DNA of 40,901 bases from a virus. The stretch covers positions 1 to 40,901 of the IMG/VR virus record IMGVR_UViG_3300008120_000151; one strand, 5' to 3'. Made by a program: the position numbers and the translations under genes. The notes under the pieces were generated by a model. It searched no databases and was not told where the DNA came from. It saw only the letters and a list, made by a program, of their open reading frames with translations. Positions 30,137 through 40,630 of the stretch are shown piece by piece (the stretch's first letter is position 1; every line of letters starts with the position of its first letter).

Positions 30137-30595
30137 GTGACATTTTTAATGTTTATAGACGGTGTTTTACGCTCGCATACAAACACGCCTATTTATCAAG
30201 GCTTAGGTTTATATAGATTACTTGCTGAGAACAACCGAGTCATACTTCTGTCTGCAAATAAAGCGGTTGATGACGTGTGGCTAAAGCAGCATAAAATTAA
30301 TAAGATAGACGACCTAATTGGGCGAGATATCCCATTTATGACAGATAATCCTGAGCTACGTCAAGTTGAATACTGCCGTAGCAATGGCCCAGTAGAGATG
30401 GTATTTACATCTAACCCTGTTCTAATTAAACAGCTGTTAGAGATAGGCATTACTGTAAACGCCTTCCTTCAGCCTTCTTATATTAAAGAAGAGTTCAGGC
30501 CAGACAGCCGCGAAGGCCGTAAGAGCTGGGCAGATATTGAGGCCGAGATAGCCACTCAGCAGGATTCAATTAAGGAAGACCCACGCCTTCAATGA
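30137..30595 (+). CDS. HAD-like protein, probably degenerate
   Basis: The 152-residue product starts at GTG 30137, with GGAG 9 nt upstream. It follows the HAD fold order: a first strand LMFIDGVL with only one of the two catalytic aspartates (DGV in place of DxD), then VILLSANKAVDDVWLKQHKI (motif II region) and later VEMVFTSNPVLIKQLLEIGITVNAFLQPSY. The loss of the second Asp suggests it is not a normal phosphatase. It overlaps the next gene by 4 nt. Confidence 0.6.
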   Translation: MTFLMFIDGVLRSHTNTPIYQGLGLYRLLAENNRVILLSANKAVDDVWLKQHKINKIDDLIGRDIPFMTDNPELRQVEYCRSNGPVEMVFTSNPVLIKQLLEIGITVNAFLQPSYIKEEFRPDSREGRKSWADIEAEIATQQDSIKEDPRLQ

Positions 30596-32046
30596 AACTA
30601 ATTTATTTAGGGGCTGAGGTCCCAAGTAACCGCACACTGTTAGAGACAACTTCAGCCACCCAGGTAGGCGTCAGCTTCTGGCGGCTGCGGGAGCGGGGAT
30701 TGCCTAAGAACAAGGATTACCTATTAGAAAACTACTTTAATGAGGATTACGCTATCTATGTGTACCCAGGGATTCCAAAAGGTACAAAGCTCAGCTCAGA
30801 CGACCTTGCAGCTTTTGCCGCAGAGTACGAAGACTTTATTGCTAACAACATAGACCGCCTCACTACTTTCAATGAGATTAGCGAGGTAGACCCAGCTTTT
30901 GTTGAGCTGCAGAGGAAGACAGCTTGGGCGGAGGTGCCGCCAGGTAAGTTCCAGCCCGTCTGGGACCCCGAATCTGGATTAAAAGGATTGAATCTAATGG
31001 TAGATGACTACTTAGATATTGCAATCCCTGGGTACGCGATTGAAGAGCAGACCCAGCTCGCCGTAGTGACCAGAACTCACGCAAGGACTAGCGGTACCCG
31101 TTTCCATGCGATAGGGTGTGCTAAACCAGACAATCTGCGTCAGGTCAGCATTGAGACGGCAAGCACCATGTCTTGGCTTAGCCCAATGATGCATGGTGAA
31201 ACCATCGTATGGGATGGTATGCAGGTCAAGCGCTACCCAAAGCGTATGAAGGACCAAGCGCGCTCACGGTACCGTAATGTGTACTTGAAAGCGGGTTTAG
31301 ATGTAGATAAGATTTTGGAAGATGACCCTAAGGAAGTCTGCCGACTAGCGGTGTGGTCGTATGGCCAATTTGAACGAAAGGTGAACGGCGTGAATGACGA
31401 AGGCTTCTTATATGATAACAGCGGTGAAATGGAAGTAGTATCTAACGCGGAAACTACCCCAACTGATATTGATAACAAGGGGTCTCAGGTGCGGAAACTT
31501 ATGCCACGTGACCCTGCTGAAATTGGCAACTTGCCAGTCTTTGGGTACGAGATAAATACCGTTGTTGAGGACGATGGAACCATCAAAGATGTACAAACAG
31601 TACAGTCACAGGCGTCTTCACTTAGGGCTTGTGATACCTGTTTTGTAGCCTCTAACTGCCCTGCTTTTAAGCCTCAAAGTGTGTGCGCTTTCAAGTTACC
31701 TATTGAGGTAAAGACCAAAGACCAACTCAAATCCCTTATCAATGCCATCATTGAAATGCAGGGACAACGCGTTGCTTTCATGCGTTTTGCTGAAGAAATG
31801 AGCGGTGGATACGCTGACCCGAACGTTTCTCAAGAGATTGACCGCCTGTTCAAACTGATTAAAACGACCAAAGAATTGGACGACTCACGTGAGTTTATTC
31901 GCATGACTGTAGAGCGACAAGGCTCCGCAGGTGTGCTAAGTTCCATCTTCGGAGACCGAGCAAACGTACTCAAAGAGTTACCAAACGACGGTCTAAACGA
32001 GGAGCAAACTACCCAAGTTATACGTGAAATCATAGAAGAAGGCTAG
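30592..32046 (+). CDS. Conserved-looking hypothetical protein, 484 residues
   Basis: I do not recognise this protein. The N-terminal part reads MKLIYLGAEVPSNRTLLETT, GVSFWRLRERGLPKNKDYLLENYF and YAIYVYPGIPKGT, suggesting an alpha/beta or TIM-barrel-like start. Mid-protein has ARTSGTRFHAIGCAKPDNLRQVSI. A Cys cluster CDTCFVASNCPAFKPQSVC (about residues 347-365) could bind zinc or an Fe-S cluster. The C-terminus is helical. It overlaps the HAD-like gene by 4 nt, so the two probably act together. A strong stem-loop covers its stop codon. Confidence 0.7.
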   Translation: MKLIYLGAEVPSNRTLLETTSATQVGVSFWRLRERGLPKNKDYLLENYFNEDYAIYVYPGIPKGTKLSSDDLAAFAAEYEDFIANNIDRLTTFNEISEVDPAFVELQRKTAWAEVPPGKFQPVWDPESGLKGLNLMVDDYLDIAIPGYAIEEQTQLAVVTRTHARTSGTRFHAIGCAKPDNLRQVSIETASTMSWLSPMMHGETIVWDGMQVKRYPKRMKDQARSRYRNVYLKAGLDVDKILEDDPKEVCRLAVWSYGQFERKVNGVNDEGFLYDNSGEMEVVSNAETTPTDIDNKGSQVRKLMPRDPAEIGNLPVFGYEINTVVEDDGTIKDVQTVQSQASSLRACDTCFVASNCPAFKPQSVCAFKLPIEVKTKDQLKSLINAIIEMQGQRVAFMRFAEEMSGGYADPNVSQEIDRLFKLIKTTKELDDSREFIRMTVERQGSAGVLSSIFGDRANVLKELPNDGLNEEQTTQVIREIIEEG

Positions 32047-32155: not shown

Positions 32156-34180
32156 ATGTCATTGTCATTTCATTTAGCTGAAGAGTTTGTATCAGGTTAC
32201 AAGGAGAAGAAAGTCCCTTGGGGTTACGTGGATGCAGGTGGCAACTCTGTTGGAGAAATTACCTTCCTTCGTACCTATTCTCGTTTGAAGGCTGACGGTA
32301 CCAAGGAGACTTGGGTTGATGTCTGCGAGCGCGTAATCAACGGTATGTATTCTATTCAGAAAGACCACGCTAAGACTAACCGCCTACCTTGGAATGATGC
32401 CAAAGCTCAGTCCTCGGCTAAGGAAGCCTTTGACCGCCTGTTTAATCTGAAGTGGACTCCCCCAGGGAGAGGTCTGTGGGTAATGGGAACGCCCCTAGTC
32501 AATGAGCAGAAGAACTCAGCGGCACTTCAGAACTGTTCCTTTGTTTCAACTGAATCTATGACCAAGATTAACCCAGCCAAGCCATTTGCTTTTCTAATGG
32601 AAGCTTCAATGCTCGGAGTGGGTGTTGGTTTTGACGACAAGGGCGCGGATAAGGACTTTACTATTTATGAACCACAACCAGATACCGACCCAATCATCAT
32701 TCCAGATACCAGAGAAGGTTGGGTTGAATCAACTTCGACCCTCATCAATGCCTACCTCAAACCAGATTGCAAGGCTCCAGTATTTGATTACAAAGAAATC
32801 CGCCCAGCGGGTGTCCCAATCAAAACCTTTGGCGGAACAGCCGCGGGCCCAGAGCCACTAATTAAACTTCACAACTACGTCCGTTCTATATTTAAGAACC
32901 GTGCTGGGGAGAAGTTAACTAGAAAAGACATTGCTGACCTTGGCAATCTAATTGGAGTTTGCGTAGTCTCTGGCAACGTTCGCCGCTCAGCTGAGCTACT
33001 CATGGGTAGATTAGATGACCAAGACTTCTTAAATCTGAAGAACCCTGCTATTTACCCTGAACGTAACTCCTACGACCCTGCAGCTCCTGGCTGGGCTTGG
33101 ATGTCTAACAACTCTGTTGAGGTTAGCGTGGGTTCTAATTTAGAACACATTGTTGAGGGTATTGCGCTCAACGGTGAGCCTGGCGTCATCTGGATGGATG
33201 TTACTCGCAAGTACGGGCGCTTGGTTGACCCTGCTAATAACAAGGACTGGCGAGCCGCGGGGTACAACCCTTGCGCTGAGCAGTCTCTTGAATCATTTGA
33301 GTGCTGTACTCTGGTTGAGACTTATTTGAATCGCCACGACAACTTGGAAGATTTCAAGAGAACTCTTAAGTTTGCCTACCTCTACGCTAAGACTGTTACC
33401 CTCTTGCCTACACATTGGGAAGAGACTAACGCAATTATGCAACGCAACCGTCGTATTGGAACTTCTATCTCTGGTGTGGCTAATTTTGCTGACCGCGTAG
33501 GGCTTCCGACTCTTCGTGAGTGGATGGATGCTGGGTACTCAACTGTTCAGCAGTACGACAAGTCTTACTCTGAGTGGCTAGGTATCCGCGAGTCTATTAA
33601 GACTACAACTGTTAAGCCTAGTGGAACTGTTTCTATCTTGGCTGGAGAGTCTCCTGGAGTACATTGGACTCCTGGCGGTCAATACTTCCTTCGTGCTATT
33701 AGATTTGGTAACGAAGACCCTATGTTGCCTCTCTTCAAAGCTAGCGGCTACATCGTAGAACCAGCTTCAGAATCTCCTAATACAACTTCAGTAGTCTTCT
33801 TTCCAATTAAATCCATGGCTCTCCGTTCAGAGAAGGACGTTTCTATATTTGAAAAGACCTCTCTCGCGGCTATGGCTCAACGCCATTGGTCTGATAACTC
33901 TGTCTCTGTAACTGTCTCTTTTGATGCGGTCAAGGAGAAGGACGCGGTTGGGACTGTGCTTCATATGTTTGACGGGCAACTCAAAACTGTCTCTTTCTTA
34001 CCTATGGGTAACCACGTCTATCCTCAAATGCCTTACACTCAAATGACGCAAGAGGACTACGAGAAGTACACGCACTCTCTCCTGCCTATTGACTTTACTG
34101 ACGTGTACGCAGGCATGGCTTCTGACGCTATTGGTGAGAAGTATTGCTCTACTGACTTTTGCGAAGTCCCTAAGGCATGA
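32156..34180 (+). CDS. nrdJ: Class II (adenosylcobalamin-dependent) ribonucleotide reductase
   Basis: This 674-residue monomeric reductase makes deoxyribonucleotides using vitamin B12. Hallmarks: LQNCSFVST (C127, active-site Cys), VVSGNVRRSAELLMG, YNPCAEQSLESFECCTLVETYL (cysteine of the radical site near residue ~373, with the following CC), TTTVKPSGTVSILAGESPGVHW, and a C-terminal redox pair KYCSTDFCEVPKA. The order and length match Lactobacillus-type RTPR (739 residues) with a shorter N-terminus. No activase or R2 subunit gene is needed or seen. A perfect terminator follows the next small gene. Confidence 0.94.
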   Translation: MSLSFHLAEEFVSGYKEKKVPWGYVDAGGNSVGEITFLRTYSRLKADGTKETWVDVCERVINGMYSIQKDHAKTNRLPWNDAKAQSSAKEAFDRLFNLKWTPPGRGLWVMGTPLVNEQKNSAALQNCSFVSTESMTKINPAKPFAFLMEASMLGVGVGFDDKGADKDFTIYEPQPDTDPIIIPDTREGWVESTSTLINAYLKPDCKAPVFDYKEIRPAGVPIKTFGGTAAGPEPLIKLHNYVRSIFKNRAGEKLTRKDIADLGNLIGVCVVSGNVRRSAELLMGRLDDQDFLNLKNPAIYPERNSYDPAAPGWAWMSNNSVEVSVGSNLEHIVEGIALNGEPGVIWMDVTRKYGRLVDPANNKDWRAAGYNPCAEQSLESFECCTLVETYLNRHDNLEDFKRTLKFAYLYAKTVTLLPTHWEETNAIMQRNRRIGTSISGVANFADRVGLPTLREWMDAGYSTVQQYDKSYSEWLGIRESIKTTTVKPSGTVSILAGESPGVHWTPGGQYFLRAIRFGNEDPMLPLFKASGYIVEPASESPNTTSVVFFPIKSMALRSEKDVSIFEKTSLAAMAQRHWSDNSVSVTVSFDAVKEKDAVGTVLHMFDGQLKTVSFLPMGNHVYPQMPYTQMTQEDYEKYTHSLLPIDFTDVYAGMASDAIGEKYCSTDFCEVPKA

Positions 34181-35427: not shown

Positions 35428-35904
35428 TCACCAACTACTCTGATAAGTGAAGTCCCAATCCTCAGGGACGGCTAACAATAGCGTGTTAATAGTTACAATC
35501 GTACTCTCTACATAATCCCAGTAGTAATCGTCATACTCAGTACCACCAAAAAAGAAACCCGAAGCGGTAGGTAAGTGCTTCTCAGCGTTCTCTTGATTAC
35601 CTTTCTCCGATAATACTGCTCTACACGCTTCTCTTAATTGAATAAGGCTATCGCGTGAGACATAAGCCTTCTGGCACTTATCCTCTCCACCTTGGCAGTT
35701 CTGAACGAACCAATCGTGGATAGCATTAGCCTTGCGCCAATACCCAACTTGAATATCAACGGTAGCACTACCAAACTCAGGCTTGGGGAAGTCGTCTGCA
35801 CCCACGGCTTTGATAATCTCTGCAAACCGCGTAGGGCTATCTTTCTCAAACACTTCGCTACTACTTACATACTTGCTTGCGTATAGGTACATATCTAGTC
35901 CCAT
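35428..35904 (-). CDS. Conserved phage hypothetical protein (MGLDMYL family)
   Basis: This 158-residue protein starts MGLDMYLYASKYV, continues IQVGYWRKANAIHDWFVQNCQGGEDKCQKAYVSRDSLIQLREACRAVL and has GFFFGGTEYDDYYWDYVESTIVTINTLL. This layout (MGLDMYL.., YWRKANAIH.WF, GFFFG...Y.eyY) is a widely seen but uncharacterised phage family. AAAGAGAAA lies before ATG. It follows a long structured non-coding stretch that could be its leader. Confidence 0.85.
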   Translation of the reverse strand: MGLDMYLYASKYVSSSEVFEKDSPTRFAEIIKAVGADDFPKPEFGSATVDIQVGYWRKANAIHDWFVQNCQGGEDKCQKAYVSRDSLIQLREACRAVLSEKGNQENAEKHLPTASGFFFGGTEYDDYYWDYVESTIVTINTLLLAVPEDWDFTYQSSW

Positions 35905-36949: not shown

Positions 36950-37204
36950 TTAAGCGTTTGGTACTTCGTCGGGCGTATCGGTGATATACGTCGTGTAATC
37001 AAAGATAGTTTGGACGAGACTTACGATTTCCGTAACGTCCATGCCGTTTGCTTGTAGGCGTTCGCACTCATCAAGGATACGGATAAGCGTAGCCTTGATA
37101 GCGAGCGTGTAGTTCATGCGTTTAACGTTGTTAAGTGCTACTTGTAGTTCTGCGACTATTTCTTTTCCGTCAATATGGTAGTTGATATTGTTTGTTGCGG
37201 TCAT
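36950..37204 (-). CDS. Hypothetical helical protein downstream of VWA gene
   Basis: This 84-residue protein is mostly helical (EIVAELQVALNNVKRMNYTLAIKATLIRILDECERLQ, then VTEIVSLVQTIFDYTTYI). GAAGGTGG lies before ATG, inside the end of the VWA gene, and only 3 nt separate the two genes, so it is probably made together with the AAA+/VWA pair. It may be a third small subunit. Confidence 0.75.
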   Translation of the reverse strand: MTATNNINYHIDGKEIVAELQVALNNVKRMNYTLAIKATLIRILDECERLQANGMDVTEIVSLVQTIFDYTTYITDTPDEVPNA

Positions 37205-37207
37205 GGC

Positions 37208-39121
37208 TCACGCCACCTTCTTTCCGTTTAGGGTGCTTTTGATAATCTCGTTGGCTAGTGCTAACGAGTGCTTAGGCTCAGATACCGACTTGAATATATG
37301 CGCCCCATGATTAAGTGAGGCTAGGTATGCCTTCGCTTGTTCCTCACCCTCACGGGCGCGTAGCATTATGTCGTGAAGGCTATCGCTATCGTTAGATAGA
37401 TAGACTACAACGGTGAGGATACCTGCTTCTTTCATGCGCTTGATAACGTCGTTGCAATCTTTATCGTCCGACCATTGACCGTCCGTGATAGCAAAGAATA
37501 ACTTGTTAGGCTTACTGCTCGCCTTTAGTGTGCGCTCGGCTTCTATGAGTGCGCGGTAGGGATTAGTCCACCCCGTGTTAGAAACGTAGCGATACACGTT
37601 AGGCTTAGCCTTCTCGTTGCTTTCATATACAACCTTGCTATCAGAATTGAAAGAATACACGCTAACGCTACCGTCAATACTTTCAATACCGCGCTTGATA
37701 ATCCATGCTTGCTCGCATACGGTGGACATAAGTCCCCACATTGAGCCTGAGTTATCTATTAGAATAGTCGCTTCAATCTCCGTGTTATCGTTGCCCGTAT
37801 CCCATACGTCGAAGGCTTCTCCGATAGCATTAACGTCGGGGTTCATAGTGCGAGAGATATTTAACTTACCGCTAGGCAGGAAGCGTTCCCACGAAGGGTC
37901 GTTATCACGGACGATACGCTCTAACTCACGACCGAACCTACGAGCATAGGCGATACCTTGCTCGGTGGCTTTCTGCTCACTAGCATTAGCCTTCGGTAAC
38001 TTAGTGCGTGTATCGGTACTGCCTAAGATAGCCGTACGGGTATCTTTAAGTTCACGGGCGATACGCTTATCGTTCTTGATTTCGTTCATGCGCTTTTCTA
38101 ATTGCGCTTGTAAGTCCTTATCCTTATCGCTAAGGTTATGGTCGTCTCCCTTGTATTCCTCAGGCTCACCTTTAGTTTCGTCACCGATACCATTACCGAA
38201 GCCCGTAGGATTATTGTTTAGTTCCTCAGGTTTATTATCTTTTGCTCGTTCTTGAAGTGAGCCTTGTTCCTTGCCCGACTTAGGGCGACCCTTCTCAGGT
38301 AGTACGCGGTCACCGTGACCTTGCGCCCACTCCGTTTCAGGCTCATCATCTTTTCCTATTAGATTAGTTAGTTGAGCGATTAGTTCCTTAGCGCGAGCAA
38401 AGTCGGTAGGGAAGGAGAGTGTGCGGTACTCATGCACGATAGCGTGTACCTCTTGCGCTAAGGCTATTCCGTATTGAGCGATAAACTTATCGGCAATAAC
38501 TTGACGTAGTTCTAGCGGTAGGTACATACGACCCGTAGTAGTAGCGAACGAGTTACCCCATTGGCTAGGGTGGTCACGCAGAATAAAGTCATGGTTCATG
38601 GCTTCAAGCGTAAGCGTAGTGCTAGGGTAAAGTGTTGTGATTAGTCGCTCAATACGACCTTCCTCTAACACGTTGAAGGCTCGCTTCATATTGTTAGTGG
38701 TGACGTACTGCCCTAGTGCGCTTCCAACGCGTGGAGAGAATAGGACGTGAGCGAGTTCGTGGTAATTAACGCCATTGAGTCCGATAATCGTATCGTCCGT
38801 CACGTCGTCAATAAGATTACCGTTAAGGATAATATCTTTACCGTCCGTCATTGAAGGCTCGGTCATTTCTTTAGTGCGAGTGATAGTCACGGCAATATCG
38901 CTATCGCCCGTGATAATTCTATCGGCGCGTTGATATACCGCACCGATAGCGTCTAGTCGGTTCATCTCGTCCGTTACGTCACCCATGAGTTCGTCACGGG
39001 TGAAGCCTTCGGCGTTAGTGTAGGCGTACCCACCGCCCTCTAGTTCAACGGCGATATTGAAACTATTATTAAAGTCGTTGAGGTAATCGTCGGACTTCTT
39101 GATTTGACGGATAGTGGTCAT
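37208..39121 (-). CDS. VWA-domain protein with HExxH motif (CobT-like partner of MoxR ATPase)
   Basis: This 637-residue protein has two readable domains. The N-terminal ~260 residues include NYHELAHVLFSPR (H121-E122-x2-H125), a zincin-like HExxH motif as in putative metallopeptidase domains fused to VWA. A charged linker (about 260-350) follows. The C-terminal von Willebrand factor A domain has MIDAS ILIDNSGSMW (DxSxS, residues 456-460), then a T in YVSNTGWTNPYRAL and an acidic FFAITDGQWSDD. CobT and MoxR-associated VWA proteins share this build. Its ATG overlaps the ATPase stop by 1 nt, so the two are surely partners. Confidence 0.85.
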   Translation of the reverse strand: MTTIRQIKKSDDYLNDFNNSFNIAVELEGGGYAYTNAEGFTRDELMGDVTDEMNRLDAIGAVYQRADRIITGDSDIAVTITRTKEMTEPSMTDGKDIILNGNLIDDVTDDTIIGLNGVNYHELAHVLFSPRVGSALGQYVTTNNMKRAFNVLEEGRIERLITTLYPSTTLTLEAMNHDFILRDHPSQWGNSFATTTGRMYLPLELRQVIADKFIAQYGIALAQEVHAIVHEYRTLSFPTDFARAKELIAQLTNLIGKDDEPETEWAQGHGDRVLPEKGRPKSGKEQGSLQERAKDNKPEELNNNPTGFGNGIGDETKGEPEEYKGDDHNLSDKDKDLQAQLEKRMNEIKNDKRIARELKDTRTAILGSTDTRTKLPKANASEQKATEQGIAYARRFGRELERIVRDNDPSWERFLPSGKLNISRTMNPDVNAIGEAFDVWDTGNDNTEIEATILIDNSGSMWGLMSTVCEQAWIIKRGIESIDGSVSVYSFNSDSKVVYESNEKAKPNVYRYVSNTGWTNPYRALIEAERTLKASSKPNKLFFAITDGQWSDDKDCNDVIKRMKEAGILTVVVYLSNDSDSLHDIMLRAREGEEQAKAYLASLNHGAHIFKSVSEPKHSLALANEIIKSTLNGKKVA

Positions 39122-40527
39122 TAGTTGAGTACCTCATAGGACTCGGACTCAGACACGGGTGAAGTAAGCGATAAGCCTAGTTCAGTAGCGATATTAAACT
39201 TGTGTGTCTCACACGCTAGTCTTACGCCACCGCGTTCCTCTTTATCAAAACCATTGACGTAGCAGGTAACCGCGAAGTCAATACCGAAGTTCTTAGCGTT
39301 GGAGATAAAGTCCACTAGCCCACGGGTTGAGATAGGGGTTGAGATTTCCTCAATATCGTATTGAGCGCGTAGTTGGTAGGCAAGGTCAAGGAGAGCCTTA
39401 TTCTTGACGACCTTAGACTCAATAGTCTTATCGTAGTTAAACTCTAACTTGATACCGAAGCGGTCATTGAACGCCTGATTTAGTGCTTGTGTACCTTTGT
39501 AGCCTAAGTTCATGTCGGCTACGATTAGCAGGTCGGGGTGAGCCTTGATTACTTCTCCACCGTTCTCCAATAGTTGGATTTCACGGCGGTAGTCAAGGAG
39601 TGAGAATAGTACGGTTGAGACACGGACGGGTAGGAAGTTCACTTCGTTCAATAGGAGTACGCCACCGTGACGGACGATTTGCGTAACCGCACCGTCTTGC
39701 CATTGGTAGCCGTGACCGTCTGCCTTAGGTATCCAACGACCGAATAGTTGAGACGGGTCAATACCGTTATTGCTTGATACGTTGAAGTAGCGTAAGCCTC
39801 TTGCACTTGCATAACTTTGGACGGAGATAGTTTTACCGCTACCTGCGCCACCTTCTACCAACACGTTGATAGCGTTAGCGCGAGCGTGGTCATAGATAGC
39901 CCAATCCTGAACGCCGTCAATCATACGATTAACGTATTGCTTAGCCCACTTAGGGTCGGGAACGCTAATCATGGCTAGGCTTAGTGCTTCTACCTGCTCA
40001 TTGAGTGCGACCTTGACGTCCTCATAAGCCTTAGGCTCAGTAGGCTCAATAGGCGCGGTTTGCGCGATTTCCGTAACGTCACCAATAGGCTTAGTGATAG
40101 ATAGGGGAGAGATAGTAATACCGTTAGTCCTACGCTTGTCGGTGAGGTAATCGGCTAGGTCAGGGTCTCCATATACTAGGCGACCGATAAGGTTATTGAC
40201 TACTTCCTTGTGTGCCGTCGGCGCGGTTGTAGGGGTGGCACTTTCATTAGCATATAGGGCTTTAACGGCGATATTGGTAACTAGACCTAGTTCGACCATA
40301 GATAGGTCACGGTCATTGAGGACAACGGCTACGGGGTCGTTGTAGATAAGGCTATCGGTATCAACGTGGCTAACCTTAGTCCATACCTGCCCACGACCTT
40401 TAGTGCCGTTGGAGATACGGTGATAGCATTGGACTTCGTTCTTGTACCCGAATAGCAGGGTTTGGTTATAGGCAGGAAGCCCGTCCATATCAGGGGCGGT
40501 ACTTTCTACGAGTAGGGCTAGGGACAT
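39121..40527 (-). CDS. MoxR/CobS-like AAA+ ATPase
   Basis: The start at ATG 40527 (MSLALLVESTAPD) has AAAGGTCACC just upstream; the frame runs open to ATG 40620, but that extension has no such site. The 468-residue product has Walker A VEGGAGSGKT (about residues 224-233) and Walker B GGVLLLNEVNFLP (N in place of the usual D, as seen in some dynein-related AAA proteins). IVADMNLGYKGTQALNQAFNDRFGIKLEF supplies sensor 1 and the arginine finger. The ~220-residue N-terminus is unique. With the VWA partner it resembles chelatase or MoxR chaperone machines that remodel or load metal into proteins. Confidence 0.87.
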   Translation of the reverse strand: MSLALLVESTAPDMDGLPAYNQTLLFGYKNEVQCYHRISNGTKGRGQVWTKVSHVDTDSLIYNDPVAVVLNDRDLSMVELGLVTNIAVKALYANESATPTTAPTAHKEVVNNLIGRLVYGDPDLADYLTDKRRTNGITISPLSITKPIGDVTEIAQTAPIEPTEPKAYEDVKVALNEQVEALSLAMISVPDPKWAKQYVNRMIDGVQDWAIYDHARANAINVLVEGGAGSGKTISVQSYASARGLRYFNVSSNNGIDPSQLFGRWIPKADGHGYQWQDGAVTQIVRHGGVLLLNEVNFLPVRVSTVLFSLLDYRREIQLLENGGEVIKAHPDLLIVADMNLGYKGTQALNQAFNDRFGIKLEFNYDKTIESKVVKNKALLDLAYQLRAQYDIEEISTPISTRGLVDFISNAKNFGIDFAVTCYVNGFDKEERGGVRLACETHKFNIATELGLSLTSPVSESESYEVLN

Positions 40528-40608: not shown

Positions 40609-40630
40609 CAAGATGAACACTAGGTGAACA
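40609..40630 (-). promoter_or_regulatory. Tandem 11-bp boxes, leftward-facing
   Basis: On the minus strand TGTTCACCTAG (40630-40620) is followed directly by TGTTCATCTTG (40619-40609), two 11-bp direct repeats on the same helix face. They lie about 80 bp ahead of the ATPase start. They mirror the pair at 40847-40868 in the opposite orientation. Confidence 0.75.

Follow-up and report, generated by a model that had tools for sequence, protein, structure and literature searches.

The 40,901-base IMG/VR virus record IMGVR_UViG_3300008120_000151, analysed here over its whole length and hereafter termed the window, encodes on its minus strand an AAA+ ATPase and, directly downstream, a protein combining an HExxH motif with a VWA domain. 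The question raised by this locus is whether the pair represents CobS and CobT of the aerobic cobaltochelatase, working for a B12-dependent ribonucleotide reductase (RNR) encoded nearby, or a MoxR-VWA device coupled to a peptidase. Both possibilities were put forward in an initial annotation, and the coordinates and spacing that it gave were confirmed: the ATPase stop and the partner start share 1 nt (TAATG), and a third open reading frame (ORF) follows 3 nt later. In the lines below, pLDDT is the predicted local distance difference test and pTM the predicted template modelling score of AlphaFold models.

39121..40527, minus strand: MoxR/NorQ-type AAA+ ATPase, 468 amino acids (Pfam AAA_5, PHROG_249, PDB profile ranking, tree)
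37208..39121, minus strand: HExxH-VWA partner, 637 amino acids (ORF, Pfam VWA; model of the whole protein pLDDT 88.3, pTM 0.78)

The architecture and family placement of the pair can be given with high confidence, whereas confidence in its biological role is low to moderate. The reading towards which we lean, as a somewhat probable one, is that of an ATP-driven remodelling protease of the replication or takeover phase, with peptidase activity and substrate as predictions only. The partner protein carries most of the features on which this reading depends.

38306..39004, minus strand: zincin-like N-terminal domain, residues 40-272 (model of this domain alone pLDDT 94.7, pTM 0.90; PDB neighbours, best Z 6.2)
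38747..38761, minus strand: HExxH motif H121-E122-L-A-H125 (NYHELAH); H121, E122 and H125 identical in 77/77 aligned relatives
38648..38665, minus strand: second motif E(E/D)xRIE, E153...E158, on model helix 146-164 (E153 in 76/77, R156 in 77/77, E158 in 76/77)
38129..38233, minus strand: low-confidence linker, approximately residues 297-331, from the zincin-like half to the VWA half (pLDDT 44-51 over residues 301-330)
37211..37786, minus strand: VWA domain, about residues 446-637 (Pfam VWA 2e-7; structural matches)
37742..37756, minus strand: metal-ion-dependent adhesion site (MIDAS) motif D456-x-S458-x-S460, with T519 and D547 (conserved in 76-77 of 77)

In its model the N-terminal domain runs from a long helix through a small sheet to the HExxH helix, of which H121 and E122 had been correctly named beforehand, and on to a later helix bearing E153-E158. 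This second motif may supply a candidate third zinc ligand, the choice of the particular glutamate being putative. Nearly all PDB neighbours of the domain are HExxH zinc metallopeptidases, namely selecase, abylysin, Q74D82, SPRTN, BlaR1, Wss1, aminopeptidase N and LTA4H. The minigluzincins (selecase, abylysin, jannalysin) and the SprT/Wss1-type zincins share the HExxH helix with it, but at Z of only 4.6-6.0 and with no sequence-level match. The modelled domain is probably zincin-like and is predicted, with moderate confidence, to be an active zinc peptidase. The model of the VWA half matches the MIDAS domain of Rea1/MDN1 at Z 20-21.6 and the VWA domain of NorD at Z 18.1, and its top Foldseek match is NorD from the NorQD complex (1.7e-7); as modelled, this half is of the NorD/midasin type.

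The pair is widely conserved in phages, where it mostly goes under the name of a vitamin B12 enzyme. Used as a single sequence, the VWA protein retrieved no relatives in the IMG/VR scan, and alignment queries were needed; these gave 80 loci for the partner and 80 for the ATPase, counts that are redundant because contigs are shared between both scans; the number of distinct VWA proteins was 118. By a strict test the ATPase gene was followed by an adjacent VWA gene on the same strand in 160/172 loci. The 12 failures comprised five ORF-start overlap artefacts, one contig end and six divergent isolates beyond the reach of the narrow partner profile, and in IMG/VR relatives the genes were adjacent wherever both were readable. 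The co-occurrence in related phages on which the initial annotation had staked its proposal was thus found. By tblastn the two genes were found next to each other in Bendigovirus phages of Gordonia and in Brevibacterium phage Cantare, while more distant ATPase relatives in DSL-LC01, BS162P1, S-CREM1, Mareelih, Hardycor1 and ANB28 had a large MIDAS or HExxH protein adjacent or one gene off; among the neighbours read in Bestia and Lactobacillus phage 3-521 there was no recognisable partner. Loci found with the partner alignment A1 were partly selected by HExxH, and the claim of conservation therefore rests on the partners reached through ATPase patterns alone, in which HExxH was present in 49/49 distinct proteins. 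That HExxH, MIDAS and adjacency are kept across distant phage relatives indicates that the pair is more than chance.

The ATPase ORF is read from an ATG preceded by a plausible ribosome site (AAAGG); a GTG lying 93 nt upstream at 40620 would yield 499 amino acids.

39961..40527, minus strand: N-terminal extension, residues 1-189 (about 190), kept in closer IMG/VR relatives, no recognised domain
39829..39852, minus strand: Walker A GGAGSGKT, residues 226-233 (G226, G229, K232 and T233 invariant in alignment A2)
39643..39660, minus strand: Walker B region VLLLNE, residues 290-295 (V290, L291, L292, N294 and E295 invariant in A2)

The extension is variable, since among the relatives L095-L147 many match from query residue 1 and many others from residues 172-192, and it is missing in Gordonia phages and in the A2 partners. 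Pfam AAA_5 is matched above its cutoff (2.5e-19), and AAA_3 just below (8.8e-6; 26.1 vs 27 bits needed), so that judged by sequence the AAA+ core is of the MoxR/dynein-like type. PHROGs places the ATPase in PHROG_249, 'porphyrin biosynthesis' (2.7e-43), which is a label and not a test. The profile searches separating CobS/CobT from MoxR-VWA that had been proposed beforehand set the ATPase nearer to midasin, NorQ and CbbQ than to CobS: against the PDB, a six-member ATPase profile matched midasin at 2e-60, NorQ at 2e-26 and CbbQ at 5e-26, far ahead of CobS at 1e-9. In the tree, CobS formed a clade of its own, and a grouping of the window's clade with CobS was rejected (p-AU 0.000576, approximately unbiased test), whereas one with NorQ/CbbQ was not (p-AU 0.128). 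NorQ/NorD and CbbQ/CbbO thus provide the closest bacterial ATPase profiles, but the M. tundrae NorD that was read has no HExxH, and these pairs are known to act on nitric oxide reductase and Rubisco. Midasin (Rea1/Mdn1) gives the best PDB profile match for the ATPase and the best Z for the MIDAS domain. Midasin is a single giant polypeptide acting in ribosome assembly, and is without a peptidase domain.

These results bear directly on the cobaltochelatase explanation, which Liu et al. 2021 (PMC8651126) advanced for phage cobST. On this view, CobS/CobT-like subunits would use host CobN and raise cobalamin for the reductase. The resemblance is real in that the aerobic cobaltochelatase also has an AAA+/VWA pair with a charged middle region, a faint N-domain resemblance (the ExxRxE motif) and a VWA half related to that of the partner by profile comparison (CobT_C, hhalign E 4.4e-8). 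However, the CobS equivalog TIGR01650 scored 22.2 bits on the window ATPase against a cutoff of 558.55, with 651 for the S. meliloti CobS control, and the CobT domains PF06213 and PF11775 had no match in the window while S. meliloti CobT gave 4e-97 and 7e-112. HExxH was found in none of 78 authentic CobT proteins (78 genomes, mainly Hyphomicrobiales), where the apparently corresponding site reads H[DN]xxxH followed by EQARVEA. No CobN was detected in 50 carrier records searched, the control genomes being positive, although host CobN could still serve.

A profile-profile comparison of the phage and CobT N-domains gave no support for kinship (E 0.23), and a narrow CobT N-domain profile scored bridge sequences close to shuffles. 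Although Stenotrophomonas phage ANB28 hits the N-domain profile of the phages at 3e-5 and also PF06213, there below cutoff (1.3e-4), we make no claim of CobT being an inactivated zincin. The solved CobT structures 9uka and 21vu did not turn up in the fold searches, which is evidence neither way.

The remaining argument for cobalamin is the reductase gene itself, whose presence near the pair was confirmed, on the opposite strand.

32156..34180, plus strand: nrdJ, class II B12-dependent RNR (RNR_Alpha 1.2e-28, RNR-II_ins_dom 7.5e-14, phrog_367 1.8e-138)

In the window's clade NrdJ was present in 36/38 IMG/VR carrier contigs searched, and its distance to the partner gene was 1.8-7.2 kb in 25/25 measured relatives. 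This synteny is real, but shared descent alone may account for it. Beyond the clade, four Bendigovirus records, Cantare, BS162P1, Mareelih and Hardycor1 yielded no RNR large subunit of any class, and neither did six IMG/VR contigs, which may be fragments; grouped otherwise, the carriers in which none was detected include those from Gordonia, Brevibacterium, Bacteroides and haloviruses. Class II RNR relatives, conversely, occur in 1069 phage records, mostly phages of Mycobacterium and Streptomyces, neither of which figures among the partner's hits. On these grounds we regard the cobaltochelatase explanation as very improbable, and the CobS/CobT identity offered in connection with nrdJ by the initial annotation as disfavoured. 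The window NrdJ shares 77.5% identity, over 99%, with its counterpart in Actinomycetia phage DSL-LC01, also an ATPase/HExxH-VWA carrier, a likeness which suggests an actinobacterial host for the window phage.

The same synteny can be read differently, with the pair as a MoxR-VWA activase or maturase of a phage enzyme, here perhaps NrdJ, in cofactor exchange or reactivation, and with the zincin-like domain only as a binding scaffold. Known MoxR-VWA pairs do activate enzymes, as in metal insertion by NorQD (PMC13036017), and HExxH-less relatives of the pair exist. The strict retention of HExxH and E153 nevertheless argues that the site is used, and at least eight isolate records hold the pair with no RNR detected. 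We consider an activase role improbable; RNR maturation as the general role of the pair was rejected in view of the many carriers without a detected RNR.

The HExxH-less relatives appear to be a lineage apart. In Stenotrophomonas phage ANB28 (L014) and Acinetobacter baumannii plasmid p1OC068 (L180) QEVAK or REVST stands in place of HExxH. The ATPases of ANB28 and of the Acinetobacter and Methylobacterium plasmids branch with CobS (99/97), and none of the VWA proteins near them has HExxH. Pairs of the ANB28/p1OC068 type make up a second lineage, one that lacks this motif. Judged by these sequences, two or more lineages appear to go under the phage label 'cobST', one with HExxH and a non-CobS ATPase (window clade, Gordonia, Brevibacterium) and one that is HExxH-less with a CobS-branching ATPase (ANB28, Acinetobacter plasmid). 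The Bacteroides and cyanophage pairs keep HExxH, and their ATPases are not firmly placed; for the cyanophages a clade with CobS was borderline rejected (p-AU 0.049), with 59-70 bits on the CobS model. The cyanophage partners S-CREM1 and syn9 gp150 match the window N-domain profile (E 3.6e-9 and 7.6e-7), and both carry HEVGH, LEDxRxE and MIDAS near a gene annotated cobS; relatives of the S-CREM1 partner occur in 463 phage records.

Several plasmids carry comparable neighbours. Acinetobacter plasmids with ATPase matches numbered 146 in the tblastn list. AAA-VWA neighbours without HExxH are found on a Rhodococcus plasmid (L175:4857-7892), and a P. aeruginosa conjugative plasmid (L181:1876-6029) has such neighbours with HEILCH, one residue too long, and a DUF3150 gene after the ATPase. 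On a Natribaculum luteum plasmid (L178:3839-6626) a MoxR ATPase is directly followed by a 615-residue protein in which HELGH and a MIDAS-like DRSTS motif occur; by its motifs, a pair of similar kind is present on this haloarchaeal plasmid.

The gene neighbourhoods speak to the phase of infection in which the pair would act. The cyanophage pair sits between gp46/gp47 and gp45, the Bendigovirus pair near DnaB and primase, the Cantare pair near ThyX and DnaE and the ANB28 pair near DnaE, while in 30 loci of the window's clade the commonest neighbour families were NrdJ, queuine tRNA-ribosyltransferase (tgt), HNH endonucleases and DnaB. Indirectly, these neighbourhoods favour a replication, nucleotide or takeover phase over head-tail assembly or cobalamin synthesis. 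For the MoxR and peptidase-vWA pair of group 2.2 jumbo phages, Iyer et al. 2021 (PMC7824862) suggested a role in virion assembly, by analogy with the chaperone pair of Acidianus two-tailed virus; motor and peptidase-VWA adaptor would fold structural proteins and mature them by proteolysis. The VWA protein ORF892 of that virus was recovered in our viral fold search (E 1.1e-5), and processing of virion proteins does occur in phages. Against this, annotated isolates with recognisable neighbours place the pair among replication or nucleotide genes rather than head-tail genes, and the 25 neighbour families seen most often in the window's relatives include no head or tail family, although context does not fix function. 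The jumbo-phage pair has the same domain order, a MoxR ATPase with a vWA protein bearing an N-terminal metallopeptidase, a likeness of architecture; that study described it in jumbo phages only, whereas the phages considered here are of about 80-180 kb with the pair in replication-module contexts. Virion assembly is considered unlikely here.

As an ATP-driven remodelling protease, the pair would consist of a MoxR-type AAA+ ring motor and a VWA adaptor with an apparently intact N-terminal zincin-type zinc peptidase domain. From fold and partner synteny, the VWA half would dock on the ATPase hexamer as in NorQ-NorD; ATP hydrolysis would then twist or pull the adaptor via the flexible linker, thereby remodelling a bound target, which the peptidase domain would cut. 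The best mechanistic template for the phage pair is, by analogy, the NorQD complex, in which a finger of the VWA domain reaches into the pore of the ring formed by the ATPase, and the motor reshapes an adaptor linker (PMC13036017). The suggestion of a MoxR-VWA device coupled to a peptidase thus gains support from motif conservation, structure models and phylogeny.

It must be noted that several observations weigh against a remodelling protease. The N-domain has structural matches of modest strength (Z ≤6.2, best Foldseek E 0.28), so the peptidase assignment leans mainly on motif conservation and on the make-up of the structural-neighbour list. HExxH is missing in some related pairs (phage ANB28, the Acinetobacter plasmid), and the pair can thus work without a peptidase site. 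Gene context is indirect evidence for role, and the papers searched gave neither expression timing nor virion proteome data for these genes.

The third ORF lies outside the conserved core.

36950..37204, minus strand: small protein of 84 amino acids, 3 nt after the partner gene

The initial annotation had envisaged a three-gene machine; the three ORFs are indeed contiguous and the pair is conserved, but a recognisable relative of the 84-residue protein lies downstream in only 3/76 representative loci (L070, L095, L112), and the gene is conserved solely in the window's closest relatives. A PADLOC search for a defence-system label gave no real match (Cas11f at 0.026 on the 84-residue protein was disregarded). 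The window also encodes baseplate, DnaB helicase, primase, DNA polymerase, UvsX-like and exonuclease genes, and is probably a fragment since related records reach about 100 kb. At 30592-32046 (plus strand) a 484-residue protein without a Pfam match belongs to phrog_887, queuine tRNA-ribosyltransferase (2.3e-47), which recurs beside the pair in relatives (5/146 neighbour proteins). Phage proteins of this type can serve DNA 7-deazaguanine modification. A 158-residue protein at 35428-35904 (minus strand) belongs to phrog_7971 (1.8e-11), a family present in 4/146 neighbours of the pair in relatives (e.g. L015).

Two published accounts of the same kind of pair are in conflict. Liu et al. 2021 (PMC8651126) report cobST from viruses whose hosts belong to eight orders and consider the peptidase annotation of cobT a mistake, whereas Iyer et al. 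2021 (PMC7824862) describe a chaperone-peptidase. In cyanophages the cluster comprises the core gene cobS and a 'peptidase'; the cyanophage partners share their HExxH N-domain with that of the window, and we differ from the former account in interpretation, HExxH being conserved here and lacking in authentic CobT. For the lineage of the window, our data speak for a description of the peptidase type. As the architecture had already been described in jumbo phages, to speak of an undescribed system was too strong, and what is new here is a further member of an already predicted kind. One may speculate, tentatively, that a widespread class of ATP-driven metalloproteases of tailed phages, built of AAA+ ring, VWA adaptor and zincin, acts at an early stage on proteins of the host or of replication, and that marine cyanophage 'cobS' belongs to it. 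Ocean virology counts phage cobS/cobT as auxiliary metabolic genes for vitamin B12; if this possibility were true, the much-counted cyanophage cobS would not be one. The split into lineages makes the function of this core cyanophage gene directly testable.

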